A DNA stretch of 38,881 nt, taken from assembly GCA_002742765.1 (NCBI GenBank), contig DLUF01000088.1:1-38881 (forward strand). Reading direction: 5' to 3'. Positions 204 through 15,174 of this stretch are shown piece by piece; the stretch's first letter is position 1; the number at the start of each line of letters is the position of its first letter. The notes under the pieces were generated by a model that saw only the letters and a program-made list of their open reading frames with translations, had not been told where the DNA came from and searched no databases. Made by a program: the position numbers and the translations under genes. The DNA comes from Sulfurospirillum sp. UBA12182 (GTDB lineage: Bacteria > Campylobacterota > Campylobacteria > Campylobacterales > Sulfurospirillaceae).

Positions 204-767
204 TCACAGATTGCTCCCACGTCTCATAACACGAGTAGTAATCAAATTAGAAACAGAAGCAGAGTCACCTACAACAAGTGCTTTTGTAGAACACATAGCT
301 GCACAAACAGGAACTTTACCTTCAGCAATTCTATTTTGTCCATAGAGTTTTGCTTCTGCTTCTGAATGTGTCTCTTCTGGTCCACCAGCACACATAGTAC
401 ACTTATCCATAGCCCCTCTTTGCCCGTAAATTCCAGATACTGGAAATTGAGGAGCACCAAATGGGCAAGCATATAAGCAGTAACCACAACCGATACATTT
501 TTCTTTATCGTGTAAAACGATACCATCTGCACGGATATAGAAACAATCTACTGGACAAACTTGCTCACAAGGAGCATCTATACAATGCTGGCAAGCAATA
601 GAGATAAATTTCTCTTTTCCTATAATGCCCTCATTGAGTGTAACAACTCTTCTTCTATTTACGCCAACAGGGAGGTGATGCGCTTCTTTACAAGCAACAT
701 CACAACCATGACAATCAATACAACGCTTATCGTCGCAATAAAATTCCATTTTTACATTTGTTGTCAT
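204..767 (-). CDS. fdhB: Formate dehydrogenase iron-sulfur (electron transfer) subunit
   Basis: This 187-aa protein has the four-cluster ferredoxin layout of FdhB/HycB/DmsB-type subunits. Cysteine sets include CIDCHGCDVACKEAHH near residues 16-30, CQHCIDAPCEQVCPVDC around 59-75, CIGCGYCLYACPFG around 92-105, and CTMCAGG near 123. It would carry electrons from the FdhA active site to the cytochrome b subunit. There is no signal peptide; in this family it is co-exported with FdhA, folded, by the Tat system. The start was chosen at 767 because AAGGGG lies 7 nt upstream; a second Met six codons later (MEFYC) is possible. It follows fdhA by 10 nt, so the two are certainly co-transcribed. Confidence 0.93.
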   Translation of the reverse strand: MTTNVKMEFYCDDKRCIDCHGCDVACKEAHHLPVGVNRRRVVTLNEGIIGKEKFISIACQHCIDAPCEQVCPVDCFYIRADGIVLHDKEKCIGCGYCLYACPFGAPQFPVSGIYGQRGAMDKCTMCAGGPEETHSEAEAKLYGQNRIAEGKVPVCAAMCSTKALVVGDSASVSNLITTRVMRRGSNL

Positions 768-777
768 CGTTTACCCC

Positions 778-3591
778 TTATGCTTTCTCTATACGGCAGA
801 GTGTACATTTTGTCTCTGGCGTTGTTGTTACAATGTCAAAACCATAACTAATGATGGTATTTGAACCCTCTCCAAGTGCATATGGTTCTAATCCTTTTGG
901 ATAGCGTCCCACGATAGACTCACCTTGGAATACTCCTGAGAATGTATATGGCATAGAAGCTGTATCGTAACCAACACGTAAGCTAAATTTGGATTTAACT
1001 TTAATTCTAAGCCCGTTGGTACCATAGATCCAAACCATATCACCATCTCTTAAACCAAGCTCTAATCCCTTATCTGGGTGAATTTCAAGCAATGGCTCAG
1101 GAGCGATTTCAGCAAGATAGATAGCTGCACGGCTCTCAGTACCTGTTCCTAGATGTGAAACAAGACGACCTGTAAGCAGTTGCATTGGGAACTCTTTTGC
1201 CCAAACTTTTTCATTTTGGCGGCTTTCATACTGGATAAATGCTCTATAATGATTCTCTTTATCTTTGTATGTTGGATACTTAGCGATTAAGTCTGGTCTT
1301 GGTGAGTGAAGAGGTTCACGGTGTTTAGGAACTTGGTCAATCCACTCCCAAACATGTGTTCTAGCTTTACCATTTCCAAACGGACAAAGACCCGCTGCAA
1401 GAGCTTTATCAACTAAGATATTACTTGTATCTGTTGACCAAGTTTTACCTTTTACTATCTCTTTTTCTTTGTCTGTCAGCTTCACACCTGTTAATGCTTC
1501 GATATTTGCAGCTGTGATGTGGTCATGCCCTTTAACACCAGATTTCGTTCCCTCTAATGCTACTTCAGATAATAAGCTTTCACCATTTGGAGCTGTTGGA
1601 GTCCATCTAGTTCTAAAGCCCATACCACCTTCCATAACTGGAGCATCGATATTATAAAGAATCGGAGTACCTGTATGTTTTTCACTCCAACAAGGCCAAG
1701 GTAATCCAAAGTATTCACCTTTGAATGGTCCTTTTCCTCTAAGAGTTTTTGTGTCAAACATATGCCAGTTGTCACTTTGAGCTTTTAGTCTCTCAGGAGT
1801 AACACCTTGAAGTCCGATACTTCTAATTGCTTGAGTATATTCTCTTGTTGCATCTTCTGGCCATTTGAAGTTACCTTTTCCATCGCCCATTGCACGAACC
1901 ATTTCATCATAGAAACCGATTCTTTTAGCTAGTTCAAAAAGGATTTCATGGTCAGTTTTACACTCATACATAGGCTCAATTACTTGATTTCTCCATTGAG
2001 TTGCTCTGTTTGTTGCTGTAACTGTACCACTTGTCTCGATTTGGCTTGCTGCTGGAAGCATGAAAAGGTCATTTTTCATATCAGCGATTGCTGCCATATC
2101 GTTTACATATGGGTCAACGATAACACAAAGCTCTAGTTTTTCCATAGCTTTTTTTGTTACGTCTGTTAGAGAGATTGATGAGAGACCACTACCGATGTTC
2201 ATCATACCACGAATCATAGTGCCTGAGTTGTTTTTAGCATTTTTCTCTTCTAAAACACCAAAACGCCATGTAGCAACACTATAACCTGTTTTGTGGAGCA
2301 TTTCTGGAGTTTTAAAGCGAGATTGCATCCACTTATAATCAACTTTCCAGTTGTTACAGAAGTATTTCCAAGCACCTTCACTTAAACCATAGTATCCAGG
2401 AAGTGAGTGAGCAAGGTTAGACATATCTGATGCACCTTGAACGTTATCGTGTCCTCTTAGAATGTTACAACCACCACCTGGCTTTCCTAAGTTACCAAGT
2501 AAAAGTTGCAAGATTGCTGTTTGACGAGTATTACCAGTTCCTACTGAGTGCTGTGTTAAGCCTTGGTTATAGATAAGTGTAGCAGGCTTTGCTCTTGCCA
2601 TAGTTTCAGTAATCTCAATCATAAGTTTAGCTGGAACACCTGTGATATCTTCTACCACTTCTGGAGTGTAGTGTTCTGCTTCTTTGATAGTCTCTTCAAA
2701 ACCATATACACGGTTTTTGATGTACTCTTTATCGTGTAAATTGTTTTTAATGATATAACGAATCATACCGTACATAAATGCGATGTCAGTACCAGGTCTG
2801 ATTCTTGCATATAGATCTGCTTTTGTAGCTGTTCTACTATAATGAGGGTCAACAGAGATAATTTTTGCACCAAGCTCTTTCGCACGTAAGATATGTACCA
2901 TACCTACTGGGTGTGCTACTGCTGGGTTTGCACCAATTATAAAAACACATTTTGAATTTTGGATATCGCCTAAGTGATTTGTCATACCACCATACCCTAA
3001 TGTATTCGCCACACCGGCGACTGTAGGAGCATGTCAAATTCTAGCGATTGTATCTATATTATTTGTTCCATAAAATGCTGCAAATTTTCTAATATAATAT
3101 GATTGTTCACCTGAAACCTTAGAAGAGCCAAGATACATCATACTATCTGGACCATATTTGTCTCTAAGTTGTTTCATCTTATTACCGATTTTTGTGAAGG
3201 CGTCATCCCAACTGATACGTTTCCATTCACCGTTTACTCTCTCCATCGGGTAGCGAAGTCTTTTCTCTCCACGTACACGATCAATCATATCGGCACCCTT
3301 ACAACAATGTCCACCTAAACTAATTGGATGGTCAACTGCTGGTTCTTGTCTAACCCATACACCATTTACAACTTCTGCTTCAAGTCCACAACCCACTGAA
3401 CAGTAAGTACAAATAGTTCTTACTTTTTTAGAGTTTGGATACTTTTCTTTTAATTCCTGCGCATTTGCAGGTCTTATGACTTTCGCTTGATCGGCACCTA
3501 GTGCGCTTGTCGCACCAACGGCACCTGCGATCGCAGACATTTTCAGAAATTTTCTTCTGTTTAAGCCGCGATTACTCAATGCTTCACTCAT
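778..3591 (-). CDS. fdhA: Formate dehydrogenase catalytic subunit, selenocysteine-containing
   Basis: This periplasmic molybdo/tungsto-bis-MGD enzyme oxidises formate to CO2. The gene is 938 codons long, and codon 186 is an in-frame TGA (3034-3036) read as selenocysteine. The context I-A-R-I-U-H-A-P-T-V-A-G is the conserved active-site stretch of FdhA (U or C, then H). Reading continues in the same frame on both sides, and a SECIS-type hairpin follows. The start is ATG 3591, with GGAGAGAAA directly upstream; an open frame extends 55 codons further but has no good start. Residues 12-17 (RRKFLK) and the following hydrophobic stretch form a Tat signal. A 4Fe-4S site is formed by C61, C64, C68 and C97 (C96 also present). 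The molybdopterin oxidoreductase and C-terminal dinucleotide-binding domains follow. Automated callers would probably split this gene in two at the UGA. Confidence 0.96.
3007..3036 (-). promoter_or_regulatory. Selenocysteine UGA codon with bacterial SECIS hairpin
   Basis: Fourteen bases after the UGA (3036-3034) there is a hairpin inside the fdhA reading frame: TCGCC pairs with GGCGA around the five-base loop GGTGT (loop at 3015-3011). The loop starts with GGU, the feature SelB contacts in bacterial SECIS elements. The GGU falls on the same codon after the Sec codon as I recall for E. coli fdhF. A selB gene lies at 13336-15174 in this window. The stem is short (5 bp), typical for bacteria, and I judged it by eye without computing folding energy. 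Confidence 0.85.
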
Positions 3592-3616
3592 TTTCTCTCC
3601 TTTCGTAGTTTTTTTC

Positions 3617-3832
3617 TTAATACGCCCTACTATAATAATTTTCCCAGTGGGCTGTTTTTTGGTAAAGAATTTCTTCTTTTTTTGAAGTGCCTTTGACAAC
3701 ACTAGAGCTTTGGGTCTTTGTCTCGCTTGCAGATGCATTTGAGAGAAGCATACCACTAGCAGCTGTAACAGCTACCGTCGTTTTACCCGCATTTACCAAG
3801 AAATGTCTTCTTGCATTCACTTCTTTTGCCAC
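3617..3832 (-). CDS. Small twin-arginine protein of the fdh cluster
   Basis: This 71-aa protein has a Tat motif A-R-R-H-F-L near residues 7-12, a hydrophobic segment (TTVAVTAASGMLL), and an A-S-A possible cleavage site. The short remainder is polar. It resembles the small formate dehydrogenase-region TAT-target proteins that sit beside fdh genes. Their role is not established to my knowledge; a small exported partner or assembly factor is the usual guess. The start is GTG 3832, because AAGGAGGAATTC lies directly before it. The upstream ATG at 3892 has no ribosome binding site and lies inside an inverted repeat, so I rejected it. It is 25 nt upstream of fdhA and co-directional. Confidence 0.8.
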   Translation of the reverse strand: MAKEVNARRHFLVNAGKTTVAVTAASGMLLSNASASETKTQSSSVVKGTSKKEEILYQKTAHWENYYSRAY

Positions 3833-3868
3833 GAATTCCTCCTTTATAAGATTTTTTGGGCTTAGAGC

Positions 3869-3900
3869 CTGCTTGAATAATCCAAAAATCATTCAAGCAG
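3869..3900 (-). repeat. Intercistronic inverted repeat between chaperone gene and Tat-protein gene
   Basis: CTGCTTGAAT (3869-3878) and ATTCAAGCAG (3891-3900) are perfect 10-bp arms around a 12-base loop. The hairpin lies between the TorD-like stop codon and the ribosome binding site of the Tat-protein gene. No T-run follows on the coding (minus) strand, so it does not look like an intrinsic terminator. It could be an mRNA processing or stability hairpin that sets different levels for fdhAB and the upstream accessory genes. Confidence 0.6.
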
Positions 3901-3913
3901 ACACTAAAGTCTG

Positions 3914-4498
3914 CTATTTGACGTAACTTGCTTCAAACTCCATAAAACTTTTTAAAATAAGTGCTATCTCTTTATAGAGATTTGACTTAGAATTTTCGAT
4001 GATATCTGCTATGAATTTGCTCACATAAGGATTGATATAAAAGGAAAAAATCTCTTTTTCATTCTCTTCATATTTTCCCTCTTCTATGCAGTAGCGCATC
4101 ATCAAAAACAAAAATCCCAAATGGTCTTCAGTCTCTTTAAAAATCTCACTATTTGCACGAATTGGCAAAGCTTTTACTGCTTGTCTGATATCAACTAAAA
4201 TCTCTCCATTTAAACAGCCATTTTTATAATGTGATATGTAAGGAAATACAACTTCGCCACTCAAAGGAACTTCAAACACTTCATCATATTCGTGCATAAG
4301 ATTTTTTATGCCATCTTGTTCTAGCTGCGTTTGCAAAATCTGAAAACTTTTTTGCGTATAATCATCAAGAGGAGTAGATCCTAGAGCTTGAAGCTGTTTT
4401 TTTATCACTTCTTCTCTGCCTGAAAGAAGATTGCGCAAAAACACTCCTGCAAAAAAATCATAAAAAACAACTCTTGCTTGATTGATATTTTTATCCAT
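3914..4498 (-). CDS. TorD/DmsD-family redox enzyme maturation chaperone
   Basis: This 194-aa cytoplasmic, mostly helical protein has the 'YDFFAGVFLRNLL' start (residues 13-25) and the central 'E-Y-D-x-x-F-x-V-P...Y-x-S-x-Y' region (around residues 85-105) of the TorD/NarJ/DmsD chaperone family. These proteins bind Tat signal peptides and help insert the molybdenum cofactor before export. The likely client is FdhA, encoded two genes downstream, and perhaps the small Tat protein. It starts 5 nt after the ferredoxin-type gene, with AGGAT before the ATG, which indicates co-transcription. Family assignment is fairly sure; the client is inferred from position. Confidence 0.82.
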   Translation of the reverse strand: MDKNINQARVVFYDFFAGVFLRNLLSGREEVIKKQLQALGSTPLDDYTQKSFQILQTQLEQDGIKNLMHEYDEVFEVPLSGEVVFPYISHYKNGCLNGEILVDIRQAVKALPIRANSEIFKETEDHLGFLFLMMRYCIEEGKYEENEKEIFSFYINPYVSKFIADIIENSKSNLYKEIALILKSFMEFEASYVK

Positions 4499-4503
4499 AT
4501 TTT

Positions 4504-5649
4504 TTATCCTTTTGTATCCATAAGTTTGAAAGATGCTTCAAGTTCTTCTTGATTTTTAGCAACAAAAATCCTCTCTCCTCGTGTTTGGTTGAGAATTTCT
4601 ATGGCTTTTACACTCACAGCTGTAACCTTGGGCGCATATAAAAGTACGCAACTTTCTGTTTCTTGTAGCAAAGATTCAAAATGAAACTGCGTCAAAAAGC
4701 TATCTGTCTCTATAACTAAAGGCAAAAATCCTGCTGGAAGTTCAAAATCAAGCACTTCTTTTAGATACTTTTCAGCGATAAGTAAAACCTTCTTCCCTTT
4801 AGAGAGTTTTGCAACTTCCAAAAATGCCTCTTTTGTAAAATACGCAAAATCAAGAGCTTGATGCGGACAAACACTCACACACACACCACAATCTATACAA
4901 TCTAAGTGGGAAAAATAAATCTCTTTTTTCTCCTCATCATAACTCAAACCATGTGTTGGGCATACATCAAGACAGCTTTTACATGTAGGCTCATCTTGGT
5001 GCATAAACAAACACTTAGTTGGTTCAAATTTTAAAGACTCTGCATACTCATACCAACCTATGCGATTGCGAAATCTTTTGACAAGTTCTTCAGTATCATT
5101 TCCCTCTAAACTCTCAACGCCCATCTTTTTTGTTAGCTCATTATTTGCATCACAAAAGATTATTTGAGCGATGCTTAGTTCTTGTTGCTCCTCTTTTTCT
5201 TCCTCTTCATTAAAAGCTTCAAAACTAACCCTAAACGCTCCTAGTTCTCCCTCAACCCCTAAGAGTTTAGAAGGGCTGATATAAGTAACTTCAAAAAATC
5301 GTTCTGCATACTCCACAAAAGCATCAGCTTCCTCTCCCTCTCCTATGATAGCGACGCTTCTTTGTACATCTAAAGAGTGTTTTTTAACGAAAGAATTTTT
5401 ATGACGAATATAACGGATTTCATAAAGTGCTTTAAAAATCTCTTTTTTCGCTTCACTCTGTTCTTGTGTGTATCTTAGATACCAGTTAATCTCTGGTGCA
5501 TAGATATCACTGTTATAAAGTTCGTTAGAGATTAAGGCTGTTATGTAGTATGCCCCCTCAGCATCGATAACCATAATCCCCTCACCATTTTGAACAGGAG
5601 GCTCGCTCTCAGCTGTGTCGCTTATGTAAAGATATTTAATTTGGCTCAT
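4504..5649 (-). CDS. Ferredoxin-domain protein of the fdh cluster (short paralogue)
   Basis: This 381-aa protein has no signal peptide. Residues 1-190 form a poorly conserved domain with the phrase 'IYAPEINWYL', and a ferredoxin module follows: CKSCLDVCP around residue 223 and CIDCGVCVSVCP around residue 250, enough for two 4Fe-4S clusters. The C-terminal 120 residues have no motif I recognise. It is a shorter paralogue of the 559-aa protein upstream: both carry Y-A-P-E-I-N, the same ferredoxin module, and the phrase 'LP.G.LPLVIE' after it. Similar proteins occur in Campylobacter fdh loci. A role in electron delivery or in maturation of the selenoenzyme is plausible but unproven. It starts with ATG after GGGGG and has its own upstream inverted repeat. 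Confidence 0.75.
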   Translation of the reverse strand: MSQIKYLYISDTAESEPPVQNGEGIMVIDAEGAYYITALISNELYNSDIYAPEINWYLRYTQEQSEAKKEIFKALYEIRYIRHKNSFVKKHSLDVQRSVAIIGEGEEADAFVEYAERFFEVTYISPSKLLGVEGELGAFRVSFEAFNEEEEKEEQQELSIAQIIFCDANNELTKKMGVESLEGNDTEELVKRFRNRIGWYEYAESLKFEPTKCLFMHQDEPTCKSCLDVCPTHGLSYDEEKKEIYFSHLDCIDCGVCVSVCPHQALDFAYFTKEAFLEVAKLSKGKKVLLIAEKYLKEVLDFELPAGFLPLVIETDSFLTQFHFESLLQETESCVLLYAPKVTAVSVKAIEILNQTRGERIFVAKNQEELEASFKLMDTKG

Positions 5650-5667: not shown

Positions 5668-5690
5668 AAATATGCATTTTTTGCATATTT
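5668..5690 (-). promoter_or_regulatory. Candidate operator 1, AAATATGC-N7-GCATATTT
   Basis: A perfect 8-bp inverted repeat with a 7-base A/T spacer lies 18 nt before the start codon of the 381-aa ferredoxin-type gene. On the minus strand it sits between a possible -35 (TTGCCC) and a possible -10 (TATTTT), so a bound protein would block or shape a promoter here. The same repeat with the same spacing recurs at 7507-7529 and nowhere else that I found. The cognate regulator is unknown. Confidence 0.65.
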
Positions 5691-5716
5691 AAGGGCAAAT
5701 AAAAAGCTTCCTTGTA

Positions 5717-7396
5717 TCATTTTGCAAATCCTTTTTCCAAAGCATCGCCAAACATAACCTTTGGTTTACACTCGGCACAGCAGTAAAGTGTTGCCATTTT
5801 TCTTGGGTCATTTCTAAAATGTGGTGCCATCATAGCAGCTATCTTTTGGACTGATTTTACTGTTGCAAACTCTTTGCCACACTCTTGACAGGCAAAAAGC
5901 TCATCTTGAGCCATAATGTTTTGGATAAAATACTTTGGTTCTAATGAAAGTTCATTTTCTACAACACTGATACAGCCTTTTTCAGGACAGCTCAAAACAC
6001 AATACCCACAACTCGTACAAAGTGATGGGTTAAATCGTAAACTATTATCTTCAGGGTGAGCAGTAAGTGCTTTGACATTACAAGCACCTATACAACTAAA
6101 ACAGAGTGTACACTTCTCATCATCTATCTTCAAATTACCATAATGAGCTATCTTACCTGTGGTGATTGTTCCTAGATTTTCACTTCCAACCAAATGGGCT
6201 AATCTAGCTGAAAAAATCTCCCTTTTACTCATGCCTTCTTGGTTGATACCATAGCTACAAGCATCAATCGCTTGTATGTTTTTACAGGCTTCTTGTAATT
6301 CAATTTCATCTTTACATGTAAAGATAGCTTGCTTGTTATACTTTCTTTGAAAAATCTCATTTACAAGGCTTACGACTTCTAAAACAGCTCCACGAAGTGC
6401 TTTTGTAAAGAAGAGAACTGGATAGGTACTAGTTTGTAAAAGTGTCATGAAGTGAGCTTCATTTAAGGCGTCTTTAGACTCTATCACTAGAGGTAAAACT
6501 CCCTTTGGAAGTTTTAAATCCAAACTCTCAAAATCTACTTTAGAAGGGATGAGTAAAACGATAGAGTTTTTATAAAAACTGCTCATTTTTGAAAATGCAT
6601 CAAAAGGCATTTGTGCCAAATCAAGAGAACTCGAAGGACAAACGCTCACACAAGCACCACAGCCTATACAATCTATATGTGAAAACTGTAAATGTTTTTT
6701 TGAATCTATTTTTATGATAGCCCCGCTAGGACAAACCCCAACACACTCAGTGCAGATATCAGCTCGTTTTCTCTCGTGGTATTGGCAAGTTTGTGAATCA
6801 TAAGTTATAAAGTGTTTATAACGGTATTCCCCTACATTTGAACAAAGTGTCTCTATAATCTTTTCCAAACCTAAGACATTTAGGTCATACATACCAACTT
6901 TTTGAGTATAAATTTTTGGCATTTCAAACCATACTATCTGGTCACAAACTACCTCTAACTCTTCTTGGTCTTTTAAAAAGCTTACATGTAAATTCCCTAT
7001 ACACCCACTTACTTCTAAGATATGATTAGGATTGAAAACAAGAGTGACAAAATCTCTCTTTTTTGCTTCTTCTATAAAATCACTATGTTCATCTAAGCAG
7101 ATAACAACTAATTTATTTCCAACACTTTGAGACAACTCGATATCATCTACAAAATCTAAACTCACCCCTCTTGCATCATATAGTTTTTTAACATTGTGGA
7201 TTTTATCACTAATTACATCTTCAGAGTTTTTTACATAGTAGTTGATTTCTGGGGCATATAGATAAGAATTGTCAGTTTTGACATTAGAAACTAGATATTT
7301 TGAAGTTAAATTTTGTGTTGTATTTACAACCTCTATACTCTCATCAAGAGGGAACTCTAGTGGATTTTGGTCATAAAACATATACTCTTTAAGCAT
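5717..7396 (-). CDS. Multi-cluster ferredoxin-domain protein of the fdh cluster (long paralogue)
   Basis: This 559-aa cytoplasmic protein is the first gene of the fdh transcription unit. Residues 1-200 match the N-terminal region of the 381-aa neighbour ('LYAPEINYYV'). A ferredoxin module follows (CTECVGVCPSG, then CIGCGACVSVCPSS), and then a linker domain. A second ferredoxin module (CTLCFSCIGACN, then CTSCGYCVLSCP) comes next, and the C-terminal zinc-ribbon-like end has CQEC and CCAEC pairs. That gives four likely 4Fe-4S clusters plus one metal site. The start was set at ATG 7396; the frame is open to a TTG at 7420, and the ribosome binding site is weak either way. The function is not known to me. 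Its place at the head of the fdh operon suggests redox partnering or assembly of the enzyme. Confidence 0.75.
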   Translation of the reverse strand: MLKEYMFYDQNPLEFPLDESIEVVNTTQNLTSKYLVSNVKTDNSYLYAPEINYYVKNSEDVISDKIHNVKKLYDARGVSLDFVDDIELSQSVGNKLVVICLDEHSDFIEEAKKRDFVTLVFNPNHILEVSGCIGNLHVSFLKDQEELEVVCDQIVWFEMPKIYTQKVGMYDLNVLGLEKIIETLCSNVGEYRYKHFITYDSQTCQYHERKRADICTECVGVCPSGAIIKIDSKKHLQFSHIDCIGCGACVSVCPSSSLDLAQMPFDAFSKMSSFYKNSIVLLIPSKVDFESLDLKLPKGVLPLVIESKDALNEAHFMTLLQTSTYPVLFFTKALRGAVLEVVSLVNEIFQRKYNKQAIFTCKDEIELQEACKNIQAIDACSYGINQEGMSKREIFSARLAHLVGSENLGTITTGKIAHYGNLKIDDEKCTLCFSCIGACNVKALTAHPEDNSLRFNPSLCTSCGYCVLSCPEKGCISVVENELSLEPKYFIQNIMAQDELFACQECGKEFATVKSVQKIAAMMAPHFRNDPRKMATLYCCAECKPKVMFGDALEKGFAK

Positions 7397-7506
7397 CTTT
7401 TTCTCACTTCCAGTGGTCAATTATCATTTACCGTATTGTATGGTCAAATCAATTAAATTTATCTTAAAATTACTATTTATCGGTGTATTCGGCTCTTCCA
7501 CGCTCT

Positions 7507-7529
7507 AAATATGCCAAAAATGCATATTT
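7507..7529 (-). promoter_or_regulatory. Candidate operator 2, AAATATGC-N7-GCATATTT
   Basis: Both 8-base arms are identical to those of the site at 5668-5690, and the spacer is again 7 bases (CAAAAAT here). It lies about 110 bp upstream of the first fdh-cluster gene and about 130 bp upstream of the three-component genes. It could therefore act in either direction. Confidence 0.65.
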
Positions 7530-7569
7530 ATTATTTGGTAAAATATATTTTATCGTAATTTTTCAATTA

Positions 7570-7603
7570 CAATTTAATTTTTATTTAAGTAAAAATTAAA
7601 TTG
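7570..7603. repeat. 14-bp inverted repeat upstream of the binding-protein gene
   Basis: CAATTTAATTTTTA (7570-7583) and TAAAAATTAAATTG (7590-7603) are perfect arms around a 6-base loop. The repeat ends 24 bp before the possible -10 box of the rightward genes, the usual place for an activator site. In such an AT-rich stretch a long A/T palindrome is less surprising, but 14 of 14 paired bases is still notable. Confidence 0.55.
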
Positions 7604-7659
7604 ATACGCTTTTAATCATATTTTATGTAGAATAGGAAAATTTAATTGACTGAGAAAAT

Positions 7660-8820
7660 ATGAAAACAAATCAAAAATACTATATTGGCTCTTTTATCGC
7701 AGTAGTTTTTTGTCTACTTATTTTTTACTTTGTACAACAGCAAAAACAATACGAAAACATAATCCTAGGTACTTCTTTACCATTAAGTGGTATAAATCAA
7801 GACTTAGGAAATGAGATAATGGAGGGGGCAAATAGCTATTTTAGCCACATCAATGCAAAAGGTGGTATCAATGACAAACATATACAATTTCTCTTTTATG
7901 ACGATAAATACGAACCTCAAAACACTTTAATCAATATCCAAAAACTTCTATACGAAGATAATGTCTTTGCTCTTTTTGGTTTTGTAGGCACTCCAACAGC
8001 AAAAAAAGTTTTACCACTTGTCATCGACTCAAAAGTCCCTTTTATCGCACCTTATACTGGTGCTTCATTTTTAAGAAGATCAGATATCTCCAACATCATA
8101 AACTTTAGAGCCTCGTATGAACAAGAGATTGAGGGTATTGTTGATTATCTTTATCGCAAAAAAAATATCACTAAATTTTCTATTTTTTATCAAAATGACG
8201 ACTTTGGAGAAGAAGGATACATCGCACTCATAAAGGCTTTACAAAAGAGAAATTTAACGCTTATTTCAGAGGGAACTTATAAGAGAAACACTCTTTCAGT
8301 CTCTCACGCAATTCATGAGATTAAAAATGGAAATCCAGAAGCTGTTATCGTCATAGGAGCTTATAAACCTAGTGCTAGATTTATCCAAAAAGCAAAAGAG
8401 TGTTGCTTTGAAAATACGATTTTTGCACCTATCTCTTTTGTAAATTCAGATGCACTCATACGAGAGCTTGATTGTGAAGGAGCAAATATAATCTTCTCAC
8501 AAACTGTCCCCTCCTTTGATGATGAGAGTATTGCAGTGGCTAAAGAGTATAAAAAGCTTCTGAATTTTTACTATCCAAATGCAAAGCCAAGTCATGTCTC
8601 TTTTGAGTCATTTTTAGCAGCAAAAGCCGTAGCAAAAGCTTTAGAAAATACAGGCGAAAATCTAACAAGAGATAATTTTATATATCAATTAACTCATCTT
8701 AATCCAAATGTTTTAGATGGAATTTCCATAGAATACAAAAGTACACAGCTTCTCAACAAAACTTACCTTTTAAACTTTGAGAATATGCGATTTAATATCC
8801 TTTTTGAGGGAGAATACTAG
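7660..8820 (+). CDS. Membrane-anchored periplasmic ligand-binding protein (LivJ/AmiC type)
   Basis: This 386-aa protein has one N-terminal hydrophobic segment (residues 8-26) that looks like an uncleaved anchor. A type I periplasmic binding fold follows: 'GTSLPLSGINQDLG', 'INAKGGINDKHIQF', 'FGFVGTPTAKKVLPLV', 'FIAPYTGASF' and 'FYQNDDFGEEGY' are the usual blocks of branched-chain amino acid/amide binding proteins. No transporter permease or ATPase is nearby. Instead it overlaps the next gene, a sensor kinase, by one base (TAGTG). I therefore infer a sensory role: ligand binding outside the membrane passed to the kinase. The ligand is unknown; formate-related or selenium-related signals are only suggested by location. 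Confidence 0.85.
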   Translation: MKTNQKYYIGSFIAVVFCLLIFYFVQQQKQYENIILGTSLPLSGINQDLGNEIMEGANSYFSHINAKGGINDKHIQFLFYDDKYEPQNTLINIQKLLYEDNVFALFGFVGTPTAKKVLPLVIDSKVPFIAPYTGASFLRRSDISNIINFRASYEQEIEGIVDYLYRKKNITKFSIFYQNDDFGEEGYIALIKALQKRNLTLISEGTYKRNTLSVSHAIHEIKNGNPEAVIVIGAYKPSARFIQKAKECCFENTIFAPISFVNSDALIRELDCEGANIIFSQTVPSFDDESIAVAKEYKKLLNFYYPNAKPSHVSFESFLAAKAVAKALENTGENLTRDNFIYQLTHLNPNVLDGISIEYKSTQLLNKTYLLNFENMRFNILFEGEY

Positions 8821-10433
8821 TGTCTTTATATAGATATATCAACCTCATCTTAAACAAAATAGAATTTTCAAGTAAAACAAAATTGCTCATATCCATCATA
8901 GCTGCGGGGATGATTGCCATAGGTTTTTTGATGTTTATCTCTATCTTTGCGATTAAATTTGATTATGAAACACTTTTCCAAAAAAGAACAACCCCACAAG
9001 TGGAACTTGAAGAGATAAAAGATATTTATACGGTAAATATACACAACTCTTTGTTGGATATTAAACAAAATGAGTTAAGTCCTAAAAATGCTATTGAAGT
9101 GATTATGCTAGCAAGACAAATCATCTCTGCCCAATGGGCAAACTATAAAACTTCTATATCAAAAGATATAGGTGGTGTTCCTGAATTTGCTAGTAATTGG
9201 CTAAACTTTTTCCTTTTTATAGAAAATCTACCAGAAAAAAATCTTTATCAAAAAAGTATTGTTAAAAAGATAGAAGAGAAGATGCAAAGCATAGATGTAC
9301 AAACTAATAAAGTTATCTTATATCTTCAAAATAAACAAACAGAACAGTTACAAGATGGAACGATTGATAAAATCATCTTTGAAATCAACTCAATCAACAT
9401 CTATATCTCAAGCCTTATCAAATCCCATCTTAAAGATGCAATTGCAGAAAAACATCGAAATGATAAAATTTTTTCTATCAGTATCTATATGCTTTTTTTA
9501 CTTATAGGATTTGTTTTTGCCCTTAGCATTATCATCTCTTTTATCATTATAAATCACTTCAAAGAACTCCATAATTCTCTTGAGGACATGGTTAACCTCA
9601 AAACAAAAGAGTTGCAAAATCTCAATGCCTCTTTGGAAAAAAGGATAAAAAAAGAGGTCGAAAACAGCCGTAAAAAAGACCAAATCATGTTCCAACAAGC
9701 ACGTCTTGCAAGTCTTGGGGAAATGTTACAAAACATCGCCCATCAATGGCGTCAACCACTTGGGGCTTTGATGATGATAGTACAAAGTTTTCAAACCAAA
9801 TTTATAACAGGAAAATTAAACGAAGAGTTTATCAATACTAGAGTAGAAGATGCTCAAATGCTTGCCCAAAACATGTCTGATACTTTAGAGGATTTTAGAA
9901 CTTTTTTTAATCCTAACAAAACGCATAAGAAGTTTAATCTTAACAAAGTGGTAGAAAAATCTATCGATCTCTCAAAATATCAAATCGAAAAAGAGAATAT
10001 TCAAGTCTATTTCACTTCTAATGAAGATCTTGAAATTTATGGTTTTGAAAATGAACTCACACATGTTATGCTCAATCTCATAAACAACTCCAAAGATGCT
10101 CTCAAATCAAGAGAAATAAAAGAGAAAAAAATCTGGATTATGGTAAAAAAAACACAAGTCAATGCTTTTATCAATGTTATAGATAATGCTGGCGGGATAA
10201 AAAAAGATATAATGGCAAAGGTATTTGACCCATATTTTACAACTAAACATCAAAGTATCGGAACGGGAATTGGGCTTTATATGTCTAAACAGATGATTGA
10301 AAAGCACATGAATGGAAAAATTTGGTGTAAAAACATCAAACATAAATTAGGTGATTCCAAGCTCTATGAGTGTGCTATGTTTACCATCGAAATTCCACTT
10401 TACTTAAAAACAGATACTGAGAAAACAATATGA
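8820..10433 (+). CDS. Sensor histidine kinase of a three-component system
   Basis: This 537-aa protein has membrane helices at about residues 22-46 and 219-245, which enclose a helical periplasmic domain of about 170 residues. A coiled coil (about 250-290) follows, then the phospho-acceptor box 'NIAHQWRQP' with His308. A HATPase domain follows: N box 'LNLINNSKDAL', 'DNAGGI', 'DPYFTTK', 'GTGIGLYMSK'. The periplasmic region could dock the binding protein encoded just upstream. The start is GTG 8820, which overlaps the previous stop and follows GAGGGAG. The response regulator follows after 73 nt. This kinase type, with HQWRQP, is common in Campylobacterota. The signal is unknown. Confidence 0.9.
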   Translation: MSLYRYINLILNKIEFSSKTKLLISIIAAGMIAIGFLMFISIFAIKFDYETLFQKRTTPQVELEEIKDIYTVNIHNSLLDIKQNELSPKNAIEVIMLARQIISAQWANYKTSISKDIGGVPEFASNWLNFFLFIENLPEKNLYQKSIVKKIEEKMQSIDVQTNKVILYLQNKQTEQLQDGTIDKIIFEINSINIYISSLIKSHLKDAIAEKHRNDKIFSISIYMLFLLIGFVFALSIIISFIIINHFKELHNSLEDMVNLKTKELQNLNASLEKRIKKEVENSRKKDQIMFQQARLASLGEMLQNIAHQWRQPLGALMMIVQSFQTKFITGKLNEEFINTRVEDAQMLAQNMSDTLEDFRTFFNPNKTHKKFNLNKVVEKSIDLSKYQIEKENIQVYFTSNEDLEIYGFENELTHVMLNLINNSKDALKSREIKEKKIWIMVKKTQVNAFINVIDNAGGIKKDIMAKVFDPYFTTKHQSIGTGIGLYMSKQMIEKHMNGKIWCKNIKHKLGDSKLYECAMFTIEIPLYLKTDTEKTI

Positions 10434-10506
10434 AAATAACTGCCCAAAATGAATCTTTATTCTTTTATTTTGGTGTAACTTTATTTTTGAAAAAGGAGAT
10501 ATTGAT

Positions 10507-11178
10507 ATGAATAGAAGAGATTTTGATTTGCTCAATGGCTTTAATATTCTCTACCTTGAAGATGAAGCTGATTTACTAAAACATACAACTGCTGTACTTG
10601 AAGATTTTACAAAAAATATTTTTGCGGTGCAAACTTGCAATGAAGCTCTTGAGGTTCTAAAAAAACATCGTATAGATGTTATTATCTCCGATATCTTACT
10701 CAAAAATGAAAATGGAATTGAATTTTTAAACTACATCAAAAATGAGTTAGGTTATAAAATCCCAGCTATCTTAACTACCGCTCATACAGATACTGAGCAT
10801 TTATTAGATGCTATCAAACTCAAAGTAGAAAACTACATAGTAAAGCCTATCAATATAAAAGAACTTTTAAACTCTTTACACGATGTTCTCTTACCAAAAA
10901 TCCAAGAAAAAGAGATTGAGAAATCTTATAATATCATCAAAACAATCTCTGCAGTTACAGATGGAAAACAAGTAGAAATGATTCGTTTTATTATCAAAAA
11001 CCTTGATGATGAAGGAGTATTGAACTACTCTTATAGTGAGATTATGGAGAGAGTTGATGTAAGCAAACCTACGGTTATCAAACTTTTTAAACAGTTAAAT
11101 GACCTTGAAATCTTAGTGAAAATCCAAAATGGGAAATACCGCTTTGACGAATCAAAACTCCCGATTCCAACTGTTTAA
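10507..11178 (+). CDS. Response regulator with receiver and C-terminal helix-turn-helix
   Basis: This 223-aa protein has a receiver domain with acidic residues E18/D19, phospho-acceptor Asp62 ('VIISDILL'), 'LTTAH' and 'VKPIN'. The output domain (about 130-215) has 'YSEIMERVDVSKPTVIKLFKQLNDLEILVKIQNGKYRF', a winged-helix pattern unlike OmpR, NarL or NtrC outputs. It probably regulates transcription for the kinase just upstream. The divergent fdh operon and the following selA gene are the nearest candidate targets. AAGGAG lies 8 nt before the ATG. A 7-bp inverted repeat, CCAAAAT/ATTTTGG (10444-10473), lies in the 73-nt gap and could be a weak hairpin or a site. Confidence 0.88.
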   Translation: MNRRDFDLLNGFNILYLEDEADLLKHTTAVLEDFTKNIFAVQTCNEALEVLKKHRIDVIISDILLKNENGIEFLNYIKNELGYKIPAILTTAHTDTEHLLDAIKLKVENYIVKPINIKELLNSLHDVLLPKIQEKEIEKSYNIIKTISAVTDGKQVEMIRFIIKNLDDEGVLNYSYSEIMERVDVSKPTVIKLFKQLNDLEILVKIQNGKYRFDESKLPIPTV

Positions 11179-11190
11179 GGCTATATACAG

Positions 11191-12519
11191 ATGAAAACTC
11201 TAAGAGATATACCAAAAATCGATAAATTTTTAAATCATAAACTCTTTCCTTCACAAAATGCACTTTTAACCTCTATCGCACAAAAAAGGATAGCTAAACT
11301 CAGAGAAGATATGCTTGCTAAAAAAATAGAAGATTTTGATGAGGACATTTTGGTACAAGAAGTTTTAAAAGCTTACACCCAGTCTTTTGAATCTTCCCTA
11401 AAACCTCTTATCAATGCTACTGGCGTTATCTTACATACAAATATGGGACGTAGTGTCATCTCTAAAGAGGTTTTAAACAAAGCATCAAAAGTGATATGTG
11501 GCTATTCAAATTTAGAGTACAATCAAGAAGCAGGATGCAGAGGTGAGAGGTATGAGCATGTCAGTGAACATCTCAAAACACTCTTACATGTAGAAGATGT
11601 TTTAGTAGTAAACAATAATGCAAGTGCTGTTTTTCTTATCCTAAACACTTTTGCAAAAGACAAAGAAGCCATAGTTTCAAGAGGTGAATTAGTTGAGATA
11701 GGTGGAAGCTTTAGAATCCCAGAGGTTATGAAGCAAAGTGGAGCTATCTTACACGAAGTAGGTGCTACAAATAAAACAAAAAAAGCTGATTATGCAAATG
11801 CCATCAATGAAAACACCGTAATGCTTATGAAAGTACATCAATCAAACTTTTCAATCGAAGGCTTTAGCGAAACCACCTCTTATGAGGACATTAAAGAGCT
11901 TTGTGAGGCAAATCAATTACTTGATTATTATGACCTTGGAAGTGGCTATATCCCAGAACTTCCTTATAACCTTGGTAACAACGAACCCTCTTTGCCAACG
12001 ATACTTAAAAACAATCCTTCGCTTATAAGCTTCAGCGGAGATAAACTCTTTGGGAGTGCTCAAGCTGGCATCATCGCAGGGCGAAAAGAGCTTATAGAAA
12101 AACTCAAAAAAAACCAACTTCTAAGAATGCTTCGCGTAGATAAGATAACACTAAGTATTTTAGAAGAGACTATAAAAGCTTACTTACAAGAGAAGTTTGA
12201 GCTTATCCCTACTCTTTGGTTACTTCAAAGAGATATCAAAGAGCTGAAAAAAAGAGCCACGAGTGTGAGAAATAAAATAGGCAAAGATAAATGTGAGATT
12301 ATCGAAACAAAAACATTTATGGGTGGTGGAACTCTACCAAATAGAGAGTTTCCAACTATCGCGATAAGCATAAAAGGAAAAGCTACGATTTTAGAAAAGA
12401 AATTTCGTCAAAATAACCTCATAGGAAGAATTGAAAACGATAAATTTCTCATAGACTTTAGAAGTATCTTACCAGATACGGAAGAAGACATTGTCAAGAT
12501 TTGTCAAAAAGTGATTTAA
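11191..12519 (+). CDS. selA: L-seryl-tRNA(Sec) selenium transferase
   Basis: This 442-aa PLP enzyme converts seryl-tRNA(Sec) to selenocysteinyl-tRNA(Sec) using selenophosphate. Family blocks are visible: 'INATGVILHTNMGRS' (residues 74-88), 'NNNASAVFLIL' (141-151), 'SRGELVEIGGSFRIPEVM' (163-180), and the PLP lysine in 'SFSGDKLFG', Lys285. Length is slightly below E. coli SelA (463 aa) but complete. It lies 12 nt after the response regulator and directly abuts mntP, so the run from 7660 to 13077 may be one operon. With selB nearby, it supports selenocysteine insertion into the fdhA of this window. Confidence 0.95.
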   Translation: MKTLRDIPKIDKFLNHKLFPSQNALLTSIAQKRIAKLREDMLAKKIEDFDEDILVQEVLKAYTQSFESSLKPLINATGVILHTNMGRSVISKEVLNKASKVICGYSNLEYNQEAGCRGERYEHVSEHLKTLLHVEDVLVVNNNASAVFLILNTFAKDKEAIVSRGELVEIGGSFRIPEVMKQSGAILHEVGATNKTKKADYANAINENTVMLMKVHQSNFSIEGFSETTSYEDIKELCEANQLLDYYDLGSGYIPELPYNLGNNEPSLPTILKNNPSLISFSGDKLFGSAQAGIIAGRKELIEKLKKNQLLRMLRVDKITLSILEETIKAYLQEKFELIPTLWLLQRDIKELKKRATSVRNKIGKDKCEIIETKTFMGGGTLPNREFPTIAISIKGKATILEKKFRQNNLIGRIENDKFLIDFRSILPDTEEDIVKICQKVI

Positions 12520-13335: not shown

Positions 13336-15174
13336 ATGAAACAACATATCATTGTTGGAACAGCAGGTCATGTTGACCATGGTAAAACCGCACTAATAGA
13401 AGCTTTAAGTGGATTTGTAGGTGATACTTTAGAAGAAGAAAAAAGACGTGGAATTACTATAAATCTCAGTTTTTCAAACTTAGAAAACAGTGAAAAGAAC
13501 ATAGCGTTTATCGACGTTCCTGGTCATGAAAGTCTGCTAAAAAACATGATAGCAGGTGCTTTTGGTTTCGATGCTAGCATGGTTGTTGTTGATGTAAATG
13601 AAGGCATAATGCCTCAAACAAACGAACATCTTGAAATTTTAAATCTTTTACATGTAAATACAATTATCATAGCTTTAACCAAAGCTGACTTAGCAAGCCC
13701 TGAACAGATTGAATCGCGTGTTCAAGAGATAAAAGAGTATATGCAAAATTTTCAACACTTGAACCTTAAGTCTATCTTACCTGTAAGTATCTACGATACA
13801 ACTTCTATCGAAAATCTTAAAAATGAACTTTTTTCTATCCCTTCAATTCCAAAACTAAGCAATGGACTTTTTAGATACTACATAGACCGCTCTTTCTCTC
13901 TCGCTGGTGTTGGAACGGTTGTTACGGGGACTGTTTTAGATGGTAGCATACAAGTTGGAGATAAAGTTTATGTTCCTGAAAAAGAGACTGAAATCGTTGT
14001 TAGAAACCTTCAAGTCCATGAACATGATGTTTCATTAGCCCATAGTTCTCAAAGAACGGCTATCAACCTTCAAAATCCAAAAATAAGCTTGAAAAAAGGA
14101 ACTCTTTTATGTAAAAAAGGTTTCATAAAAGGTTTTAATAGTGTTGATGTTTGGATTGAAGGCATTGCAAATGCTAAAATCAAACACGATTCAAAAGTTA
14201 TTTTATTTGTAGGAACAAAGCAAATCGAAACAAAGATTTTACTCTATGAGAGTGAAGAGAGCATCGAAAAAGGATATGCAAAACTTTTATTTAACCAAAA
14301 GATGTTTTTAGTTCACAATGAACCTTTTATCATCTGTGTAAGTGGTCGAACCATAGGAGGAGGAAGAGTCCTTAATCCTGTTCAAGATCCTATCAAGAAA
14401 AAAGTGAAGATGCAACTCCTTCAAGCTTTAAATATCAAAGATTTTAAAACAGCTTTTGAAATCTTAGTCAACATTCATAGACGAGGATTTGGTCTCATCT
14501 CTTCTAACCAGAGATTTGGTTTAAATCATGATGAGGCAATTTGCATCGCAAAAGAGATAGATAACATCTTTGTTGATGAAAAAAATCTCGTCCTTTATCC
14601 GATGGATATCAAAGATGAACTAGCAAAAATCGTCTATAACATTTACAACAAAAACCAGTATGCTCTTCTCTCAGCAAACTCCTTAGCACTTAAAATCAAA
14701 TGGGCAAGTCAAGCACTTTTAGAAGAAGTTTTAGAGGAGATTTGCAAAAGTGGCAAACTCACCTTTGAAAATGGAATTTATAAAAATGCACATATAGATA
14801 TAGATAATATAGACACCTTAGTAGAAGAGAAGATTTATGAGATTTTAAAAACAGAAAATTTTACTCCAACAGCTCCGTATAACATCTATGAAGACTTAGA
14901 TATTGATAGAAAGATGGGAGATGATGCACTCAAACGCCTTACTCGTGCGAGAAAAGTTGTTCGTCTAGCACATAATCTTTTTGTAACAACAGATACACTC
15001 ACCACAGTTATGTCCAGACTAAGAGAACTCATAAGAACACAAGGGTATGTGGATATAAGTATGTTTCGTGAGCATTATGATTTTAGTAGAAAATACCTTA
15101 TAGCATATCTTGATTATCTTGATTTATATGATGATATAAAAAAAGATGGGGATAAACGTATCCTCAACTCTTAA
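13336..15174 (+). CDS. selB: Selenocysteine-specific translation elongation factor
   Basis: This 612-aa GTPase brings Sec-tRNA(Sec) to the ribosome at UGA codons marked by a SECIS hairpin. The P-loop 'GTAGHVDHGKT' is at residues 8-17, the switch region 'RGITINLSF' at about 38-46, the G3 'DVPGHE' at about 60-65, and 'TKADL' at about 115. EF-Tu-like beta-barrel domains follow ('VGTVVTGTVLDG'). The C-terminal 250 residues form the winged-helix array that binds SECIS RNA, ending near 'YLDYLDLYDDIKKDGDKR'. The start is ATG 13336, with GGGG upstream. Its end overlaps the convergent EAL-HDOD gene by 4 bp. Its substrate in this window is the fdhA UGA. Confidence 0.96.
   Translation: MKQHIIVGTAGHVDHGKTALIEALSGFVGDTLEEEKRRGITINLSFSNLENSEKNIAFIDVPGHESLLKNMIAGAFGFDASMVVVDVNEGIMPQTNEHLEILNLLHVNTIIIALTKADLASPEQIESRVQEIKEYMQNFQHLNLKSILPVSIYDTTSIENLKNELFSIPSIPKLSNGLFRYYIDRSFSLAGVGTVVTGTVLDGSIQVGDKVYVPEKETEIVVRNLQVHEHDVSLAHSSQRTAINLQNPKISLKKGTLLCKKGFIKGFNSVDVWIEGIANAKIKHDSKVILFVGTKQIETKILLYESEESIEKGYAKLLFNQKMFLVHNEPFIICVSGRTIGGGRVLNPVQDPIKKKVKMQLLQALNIKDFKTAFEILVNIHRRGFGLISSNQRFGLNHDEAICIAKEIDNIFVDEKNLVLYPMDIKDELAKIVYNIYNKNQYALLSANSLALKIKWASQALLEEVLEEICKSGKLTFENGIYKNAHIDIDNIDTLVEEKIYEILKTENFTPTAPYNIYEDLDIDRKMGDDALKRLTRARKVVRLAHNLFVTTDTLTTVMSRLRELIRTQGYVDISMFREHYDFSRKYLIAYLDYLDLYDDIKKDGDKRILNS

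Follow-up and report, generated by a model that had tools for sequence, protein, structure and literature searches.

The window, by which we mean the whole analyzed stretch of 38,881 nucleotides, comes from a 2.25-Mb Sulfurospirillaceae genome and carries a formate dehydrogenase (fdh) cluster, a two-component operon, homologues of selA and selB, and two short palindromic sites. The features are listed below by position, together with a regulator gene that lies on another contig of the same genome.

204..767, minus strand: formate dehydrogenase iron-sulfur subunit FdhB (Fer4_11)
778..3600, minus strand: formate dehydrogenase catalytic subunit, two open reading frames in one frame split only by a TGA
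3617..3892, minus strand: 91-aa small protein of the fdh cluster with a Tat-like N terminus, kept in relatives' fdh clusters
3914..4498, minus strand: TorD/NarJ-like chaperone (Nitrate_red_del, PF02613, 1.9e-13), in the unit downstream of site 1
4504..5649, minus strand: 381-aa ferredoxin paralogue, first gene after site 1, heading the fdh structural genes
5668..5690, no strand assigned: site 1, AAATATGC-ATTTTTT-GCATATTT, exact, predicted operator
5717..7420, minus strand: 567-aa polyferredoxin of the fdh cluster, likely start ATG 7396, several Fer4 domains, downstream of site 2
7507..7529, no strand assigned: site 2, AAATATGC-CAAAAAT-GCATATTT, exact, predicted operator in the divergent intergenic region 7421-7659
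7660..11178, plus strand: divergent operon adjoining site 2, encoding a periplasmic binding protein (7660-8820), a histidine kinase (8820-10433) and a response regulator (10507-11178)
11191-12519: selA homologue
13336-15174: selB homologue
Contig C90, 11496-12254: ModE-like regulator, 252 aa, beside fdhD

The TGA at 3034-3036 within the fdhA gene of the window is in frame and marks the selenocysteine position. Both fdhA genes of the genome are broken by one in-frame stop, which in the second copy falls between 6786 and 6808 of locus L011, and an orthologue of the 567-aa polyferredoxin stands first in the second fdh cluster, on contig C90. Both fdhA products are predicted selenocysteine formate dehydrogenases, and the window also encodes homologues of selA and selB.

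A pattern search recovered two exact copies of AAATATGC-N7-GCATATTT where the initial annotation of this DNA had placed them and no third copy in the window, and 100 dinucleotide shuffles of the window gave no match. The closest further match in the window (7378-7400) had three mismatches and was at chance level. Identical arms and identical 7-base spacers had been described; the arms are identical and the spacers equal in length, but the spacer sequences differ as written on the plus strand. When the sites are read on opposite strands, site 1 on the minus strand (AAATATGCaAAAAATGCATATTT) and site 2 on the plus strand (AAATATGCcAAAAATGCATATTT), 22 of 23 bases agree, spacer included. The center of site 1 falls about 30 bp 5′ of the start codon (ATG, 5649, minus strand) of the gene for the 381-aa ferredoxin. 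For site 2, the distance to the probable ATG of the 567-aa paralogue (7396) is about 122 bp, and this site likewise stands 142 bp 5′ of the divergent binding-protein gene at 7660. Each site precedes a ferredoxin paralogue, as first described, and the two ferredoxin proteins are true paralogues that are 32% identical. One site had also been placed between −35 and −10 elements; the minus-strand context of site 1 does permit a −35-like TTGCCC, and, as a refinement, the −10-like sequence is an overlapping CATATT/TATTTT.

The initial annotation had proposed a genome-wide motif scan and had named many copies at random positions, or loss of the repeat in orthologous fdh promoters, as outcomes that would speak against an operator. 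The scan gave five exact sites and six at up to one mismatch, with none at either stringency for a reversed-pattern control, and the sites were enriched before fdh and molybdenum/tungsten (Mo/W) genes. Exact copies outside the window were found at C90:3234, ahead of the second fdh cluster, and at C103:68694 and 68864, ahead of the gene for a molybdopterin aldehyde oxidoreductase (mop). Near-matches were located ahead of wtpA (one mismatch), in the tupB/tupA intergenic region (two), ahead of a FIST-domain kinase gene (two) and ahead of fdhD-modE (three). Target genes were identified as TupA (3.6e-144), WtpA (5.9e-113), FdhD (6.9e-85) and molybdopterin aldehyde oxidoreductase (E=0). Isolated intragenic matches at two to three mismatches (C77:9550, C103:10916 and others) were taken as chance. 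Many random copies were absent, and nearly all of the exact sites and near-matches stand before Mo/W genes. The FIST-domain histidine kinase gene repeatedly adjoined a box, often divergent from mop (L014:6192-6214, L021, L024, L076-L079 and L082), and its product is a possible aldehyde or Mo-enzyme sensor.

Nor was the repeat lost from orthologous promoters, as it was kept in all three site 1 orthologues and in several of site 2. Three orthologues of the 381-aa ferredoxin gene were found in the family, and all three had a box about 25-30 bp upstream; in genomes G060 and G004 the box lay at 25-26 bp and was accompanied by a second box 34-41 bp further up. Orthologues of site 2 occurred between the same two genes in L226/L029 (genome G012), L085 and L204, and in L227 (genome G002) a box lay 191 bp before the ferredoxin gene, which is there divergent from tupA. 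The site 2 box was absent from the intergenic region in most of the 29 loci that pair the binding-protein and ferredoxin genes. Exact boxes in other Sulfurospirillaceae preceded fdhD-modE, fdhA units, the aldehyde oxidoreductase gene, genes for FdhA-like oxidoreductases, and a gene whose product has both AFOR Pfam domains (3e-72) and is a tungsten-type aldehyde ferredoxin oxidoreductase (AFOR). The spacer of the box was depleted in G and C, although the search pattern had left it free.

A matrix built from the relatives' sites only was applied to 80 contigs with a ModE-like gene, drawn from Sulfurospirillum, Sulfurimonas, Sulfurovum, the Arcobacter group, Campylobacter and two Desulfobacterota. 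These loci, some of which share a family with the training sites of the matrix while the other genera are independent of it, held 135 strong sites, versus 3 in randomized (Markov) copies. At least one box was found in 70 of the 80 loci, and none lay inside an annotated gene. The targets were fdhD (53, at a median of 23 bp), wtpA (23), an fdh delta gene (15) and tupA/tupB (13); 24 sites had no assigned target. Two exact boxes came from another phylum, one in Desulfopila, 107 bp after an HTH-only ModE that is 72% identical to the Sulfurospirillum ModE-like protein, and one in an fdh unit of Desulfofustis. The box is symmetric, conserved, intergenic, fixed in spacing and enriched over controls, as is a palindromic operator. 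We conclude that the description of the palindrome as the operator of a regulator is well supported by its conservation, its intergenic position before fdh and Mo/W genes, and its retention in orthologous promoters.

Boxes were often paired, 31-42 or about 62-63 bp apart (L021, L024, L076-L079, L117, L157-L159, L163, L182 and L202). The distances correspond to roughly whole helical turns, which suggests that binding could be cooperative.

The palindrome could instead act as RNA, in the hairpin of a terminator or attenuator, and an A-U-rich stem of 8-12 bp is indeed possible (−7.2 to −10.2 kcal/mol, z −1.7 to −4.0). Such stems are weak, however, with two G-C pairs, and follow no T-run rule, and the sites lie at promoters and between divergent genes, form tandem pairs and keep an invariant 23-bp frame. 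We consider an RNA hairpin extremely improbable and treat the palindrome as a DNA operator.

One candidate for the cognate regulator is the ModE-like protein encoded beside fdhD. The protein matched the ModE domain model TIGR00637 at 2.2e-20, under the model's curated cutoff of 98.5 bits, and the PDB sequence 2ijl at 8.7e-12. Its predicted C-terminal fold superimposed on E. coli ModE (1b9m) with a Z score of 14.1 and 2.0 Å over 101 residues, and the protein has a ModE-type winged-helix DNA-binding domain in which the helix-turn-helix (HTH) is C-terminal. Pfam matched the HTH only, and no TOBE/Mop domain was found in the protein. The genes downstream of the box, namely, fdh, tup, wtp-mod, fdhD, mop and the AFOR gene, are Mo/W targets in keeping with the ModE family.

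The genome also encodes a classical TOBE-type ModE on contig C58 (L164:4181-5036), beside nif and modABC genes. The E. coli ModE box is ATCGNTATATA-N6-TATATANCGAT (PMC545781, PMC2700814). Two E. coli-type boxes, with three and four mismatches, were found in the classical modE promoter, and no AAATATGC box was found there. Conversely, the fdh, tup, wtp and mop promoters contained no E. coli-type box, with 7 to 9 of 20 specified bases mismatched against ATCGNTATATA-N6/7-TATATANCGAT, and that count in all target promoters ruled out that the palindrome is itself an E. coli-type ModE box. This reciprocal distribution suggests that two ModE-type regulators, each with its own box, coexist in the genome. 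Binding of the palindrome by the classical protein might be argued from its role as the Mo/W sensor in E. coli and from genome G028, where it is the sole ModE type, but its own promoter carries the other kind of box and the target promoters do not, and we consider that assignment very unlikely.

The initial annotation had suggested a regulator of formate oxidation, possibly the response regulator at 10507-11178, as the binder; the box would then belong to a two-component system. Site 2 does sit between the divergent genes, in the region from which the operon of this regulator is also driven, and orthologous sites recur there in L226/L029, L085 and L204. Co-occurrence was surveyed in 199 genomes of the order, with the ModE-like protein counted as present at E values up to 1e-20 and a response-regulator orthologue defined by at least 54% identity to the window protein, a threshold chosen in this analysis. 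Genomes with both proteins had a mean of 2.14 sites at up to one mismatch, those with only the ModE-like protein 0.91, those with only the response regulator 0.14 and those with neither 0.17. Among the 183 genomes outside the family, at least two such sites were found in 15 of the 36 with the ModE-like protein versus 1 of the 147 without it (p=2e-11, nominal like the p values below because related genomes were counted as independent). The association of the ModE-like protein with sites persisted in genomes negative for the response regulator (p=5e-4 when one site was required and 2e-6 when two were), and in ModE-negative genomes the response regulator showed no association with sites (0/7 versus 1/140, p=1).

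The seven genomes with a response-regulator orthologue and no ModE-like protein held one site in total, which is a background number, and genomes G017 and G023 have exact boxes before fdhD yet no response-regulator orthologue. Control by the response regulator would also leave the boxes before tup, wtp and fdhD-modE unexplained. Moreover, most of the 29 pair intergenic regions are box-less, and about 20 instead share CTTAACAAG or CTTAATAAG. On the co-occurrence table and the box-less majority of orthologous intergenic regions, the response regulator was rejected as the binder, and we assign that reading a very low probability. Restriction to formate oxidation was too narrow because tungstate/molybdate uptake genes, fdhD-modE and genes for two kinds of aldehyde oxidoreductase carry the box as well. 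Of the 29 family loci, about 20 have the CTTAACAAG (or CTTAATAAG) motif at 45-73 bp from the ferredoxin gene (L203-L229 intergenic regions), whereas 7421-7659 of the window lacks it; the motif is a better candidate operator of the two-component system than the AAATATGC box. The sequence CTTGTTAAG, which occurs before fdh cluster 2 of the Sulfurospirillum genome (L011 about 3405), is grouped with this candidate.

A different transcription factor of the Mo/W/formate gene set might bind the box, with the ModE-like protein a mere neighbor of the targets. Genome G028 (L166:5363-5448) has two boxes before mop and no detectable fdhD-linked ModE-like protein; loss of the gene, a gap or a different binder could account for this exception. 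Against another factor, the box is most constant directly before fdhD-modE, a pattern of autoregulation, and follows HTH-only ModE across phyla, and we hold this alternative to be unlikely. Two members of the family, G009 with a broken ModE-like gene and G025 without one, had no sites. The box was not found around modE in several ModE-positive groups, the C. jejuni type included, and therefore either specificity has drifted there or the pairing of protein and box is not universal. We infer that the 23-bp palindrome is very probably the operator of the fdhD-linked ModE-like Mo/W regulator. The box appears to mark genes of Mo/W uptake and use across a bacterial order, with the ModE-like protein as its most likely binder.

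As proposed here, a symmetric dimer of the ModE-like regulator would bind the palindrome of about 23 bp and regulate Mo/W uptake (tupA/tupB and wtpA-modCB), its own fdhD-modE, the formate dehydrogenases and two kinds of aldehyde oxidoreductase. At fdhD-modE, tupA, wtpA and site 1 of the window, the box lies within a few tens of base pairs of the start codon, and binding would therefore block RNA polymerase, which predicts repression and, for fdhD-modE, autorepression. The boxes of fdh units, mop and AFOR genes mostly lie farther away, 50-260 bp upstream, and from there the regulator might either activate or partly repress. The likely logic is that metal uptake and the set of Mo/W enzymes would be matched to the metal or cofactor at hand. 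The TaoR proteins of Desulfovibrio are tungsten-enzyme regulators that are said to control tupABC and an aldehyde oxidoreductase and to have an excisionase-type DNA-binding domain; on that description, they resemble the ModE-like regulon in the tup genes and an aldehyde oxidoreductase and differ in the DNA-binding domain.

ModE-type control itself is already known, and what is new here is the distinct box and a Cys-rich domain outside Pfam and NCBIfam. The ModE-like protein shares with E. coli ModE the LysR-type ModE DNA-binding fold and targets in Mo uptake and Mo enzymes, but unlike E. coli ModE it has no TOBE/Mop domains. The AAATATGC-N7-GCATATTT box differs in sequence from the E. coli box and has its G-C pairs near the center, and membership in the ModE family alone therefore does not predict the box. 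For the HTH-only ModE of Desulfovibrio, control of Mo uptake through a site CGGTCACG-N14-CGTGACCG was predicted (PMC545781); the two proteins have in common a ModE DNA-binding domain without an attached metal sensor, whereas that site is unrelated to the AAATATGC box in sequence and spacing. A site was not found for the HTH-only ModE of D. psychrophila (PMC545781), in contrast to Desulfopila and Desulfofustis, which carry the AAATATGC box.

A close described relative, in the same protein family, is C. jejuni Cj1507c (Taveirne 2009, cited in PMC7011364), which is reported to repress modABC and the tungstate transporter and to lack a metal-binding domain; the absence of a TOBE domain is common to Cj1507c and the Sulfurospirillum ModE-like protein. 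A C. jejuni ModE-like protein near fdh genes (locus L131) is homologous to the Sulfurospirillum protein over the full-length architecture and 51% identical to it, and the HTH reads GSLLHASKLMG in the C. jejuni type versus GSIAKAAEKLG in the Sulfurospirillum type. The AAATATGC box was found neither around modE in the examined C. jejuni record nor above noise in the genome, and no tupA homologue was found in three C. jejuni-type genomes for promoter comparison. No paper on the AAATATGC-N7-GCATATTT box was found in the literature searched, a search outside which the 2009 C. jejuni study lay. For the ModE-like regulators of Campylobacterota that lack TOBE domains, known in the literature read from one C. 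jejuni study, the present data offer a proposed operator sequence together with a list of genes. Two questions become testable: how the choice between formate dehydrogenases and aldehyde oxidoreductases is made in bacteria that have enzymes of both metals, Mo and W, and how metal can be answered by a ModE that has no metal-binding domain. In addition, one short motif lets Mo/W genes be found in unannotated genomes of the group.

The N-terminal part of the ModE-like protein is a Cys-rich tandem domain (L011:11496-11870 and homologues, alignment A2) with the pattern LxC...CELGxFG...C...CQLGCF, in which Cys 20, 51, 85, 114 and 118 were invariant in 40 sequences. No Pfam or NCBIfam family covers this region. 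Modeled alone, the domain reached a mean pLDDT of 69, a modest confidence, and the model gave no Foldseek match under an E value of 0.001 and nothing convincing in a PDB profile search. In Arcobacter- and Sulfurimonas-type genomes, a gene of its own encodes the tandem domain, immediately upstream of the gene for an HTH-only ModE, an arrangement that fits a detachable sensor. We tentatively suggest, as a possibility that we ourselves regard as rather doubtful, that the five-cysteine tandem domain, in place of the TOBE domains of classical ModE, lets the ModE-like regulator sense either Mo/W or the state of the sulfurated molybdenum cofactor, and that the regulator acts at its own operator beside classical ModE. 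If so, a second, cysteine-based principle of Mo/W sensing would operate alongside classical ModE in one cell.

A further gene with a box was observed in genome G012, where a gene for a FecCD-type ABC permease (L179:4011-5057) starts at a box with one mismatch. Molybdate importers of the FecCD type are known, and for that reason the permease may be a further uptake system.
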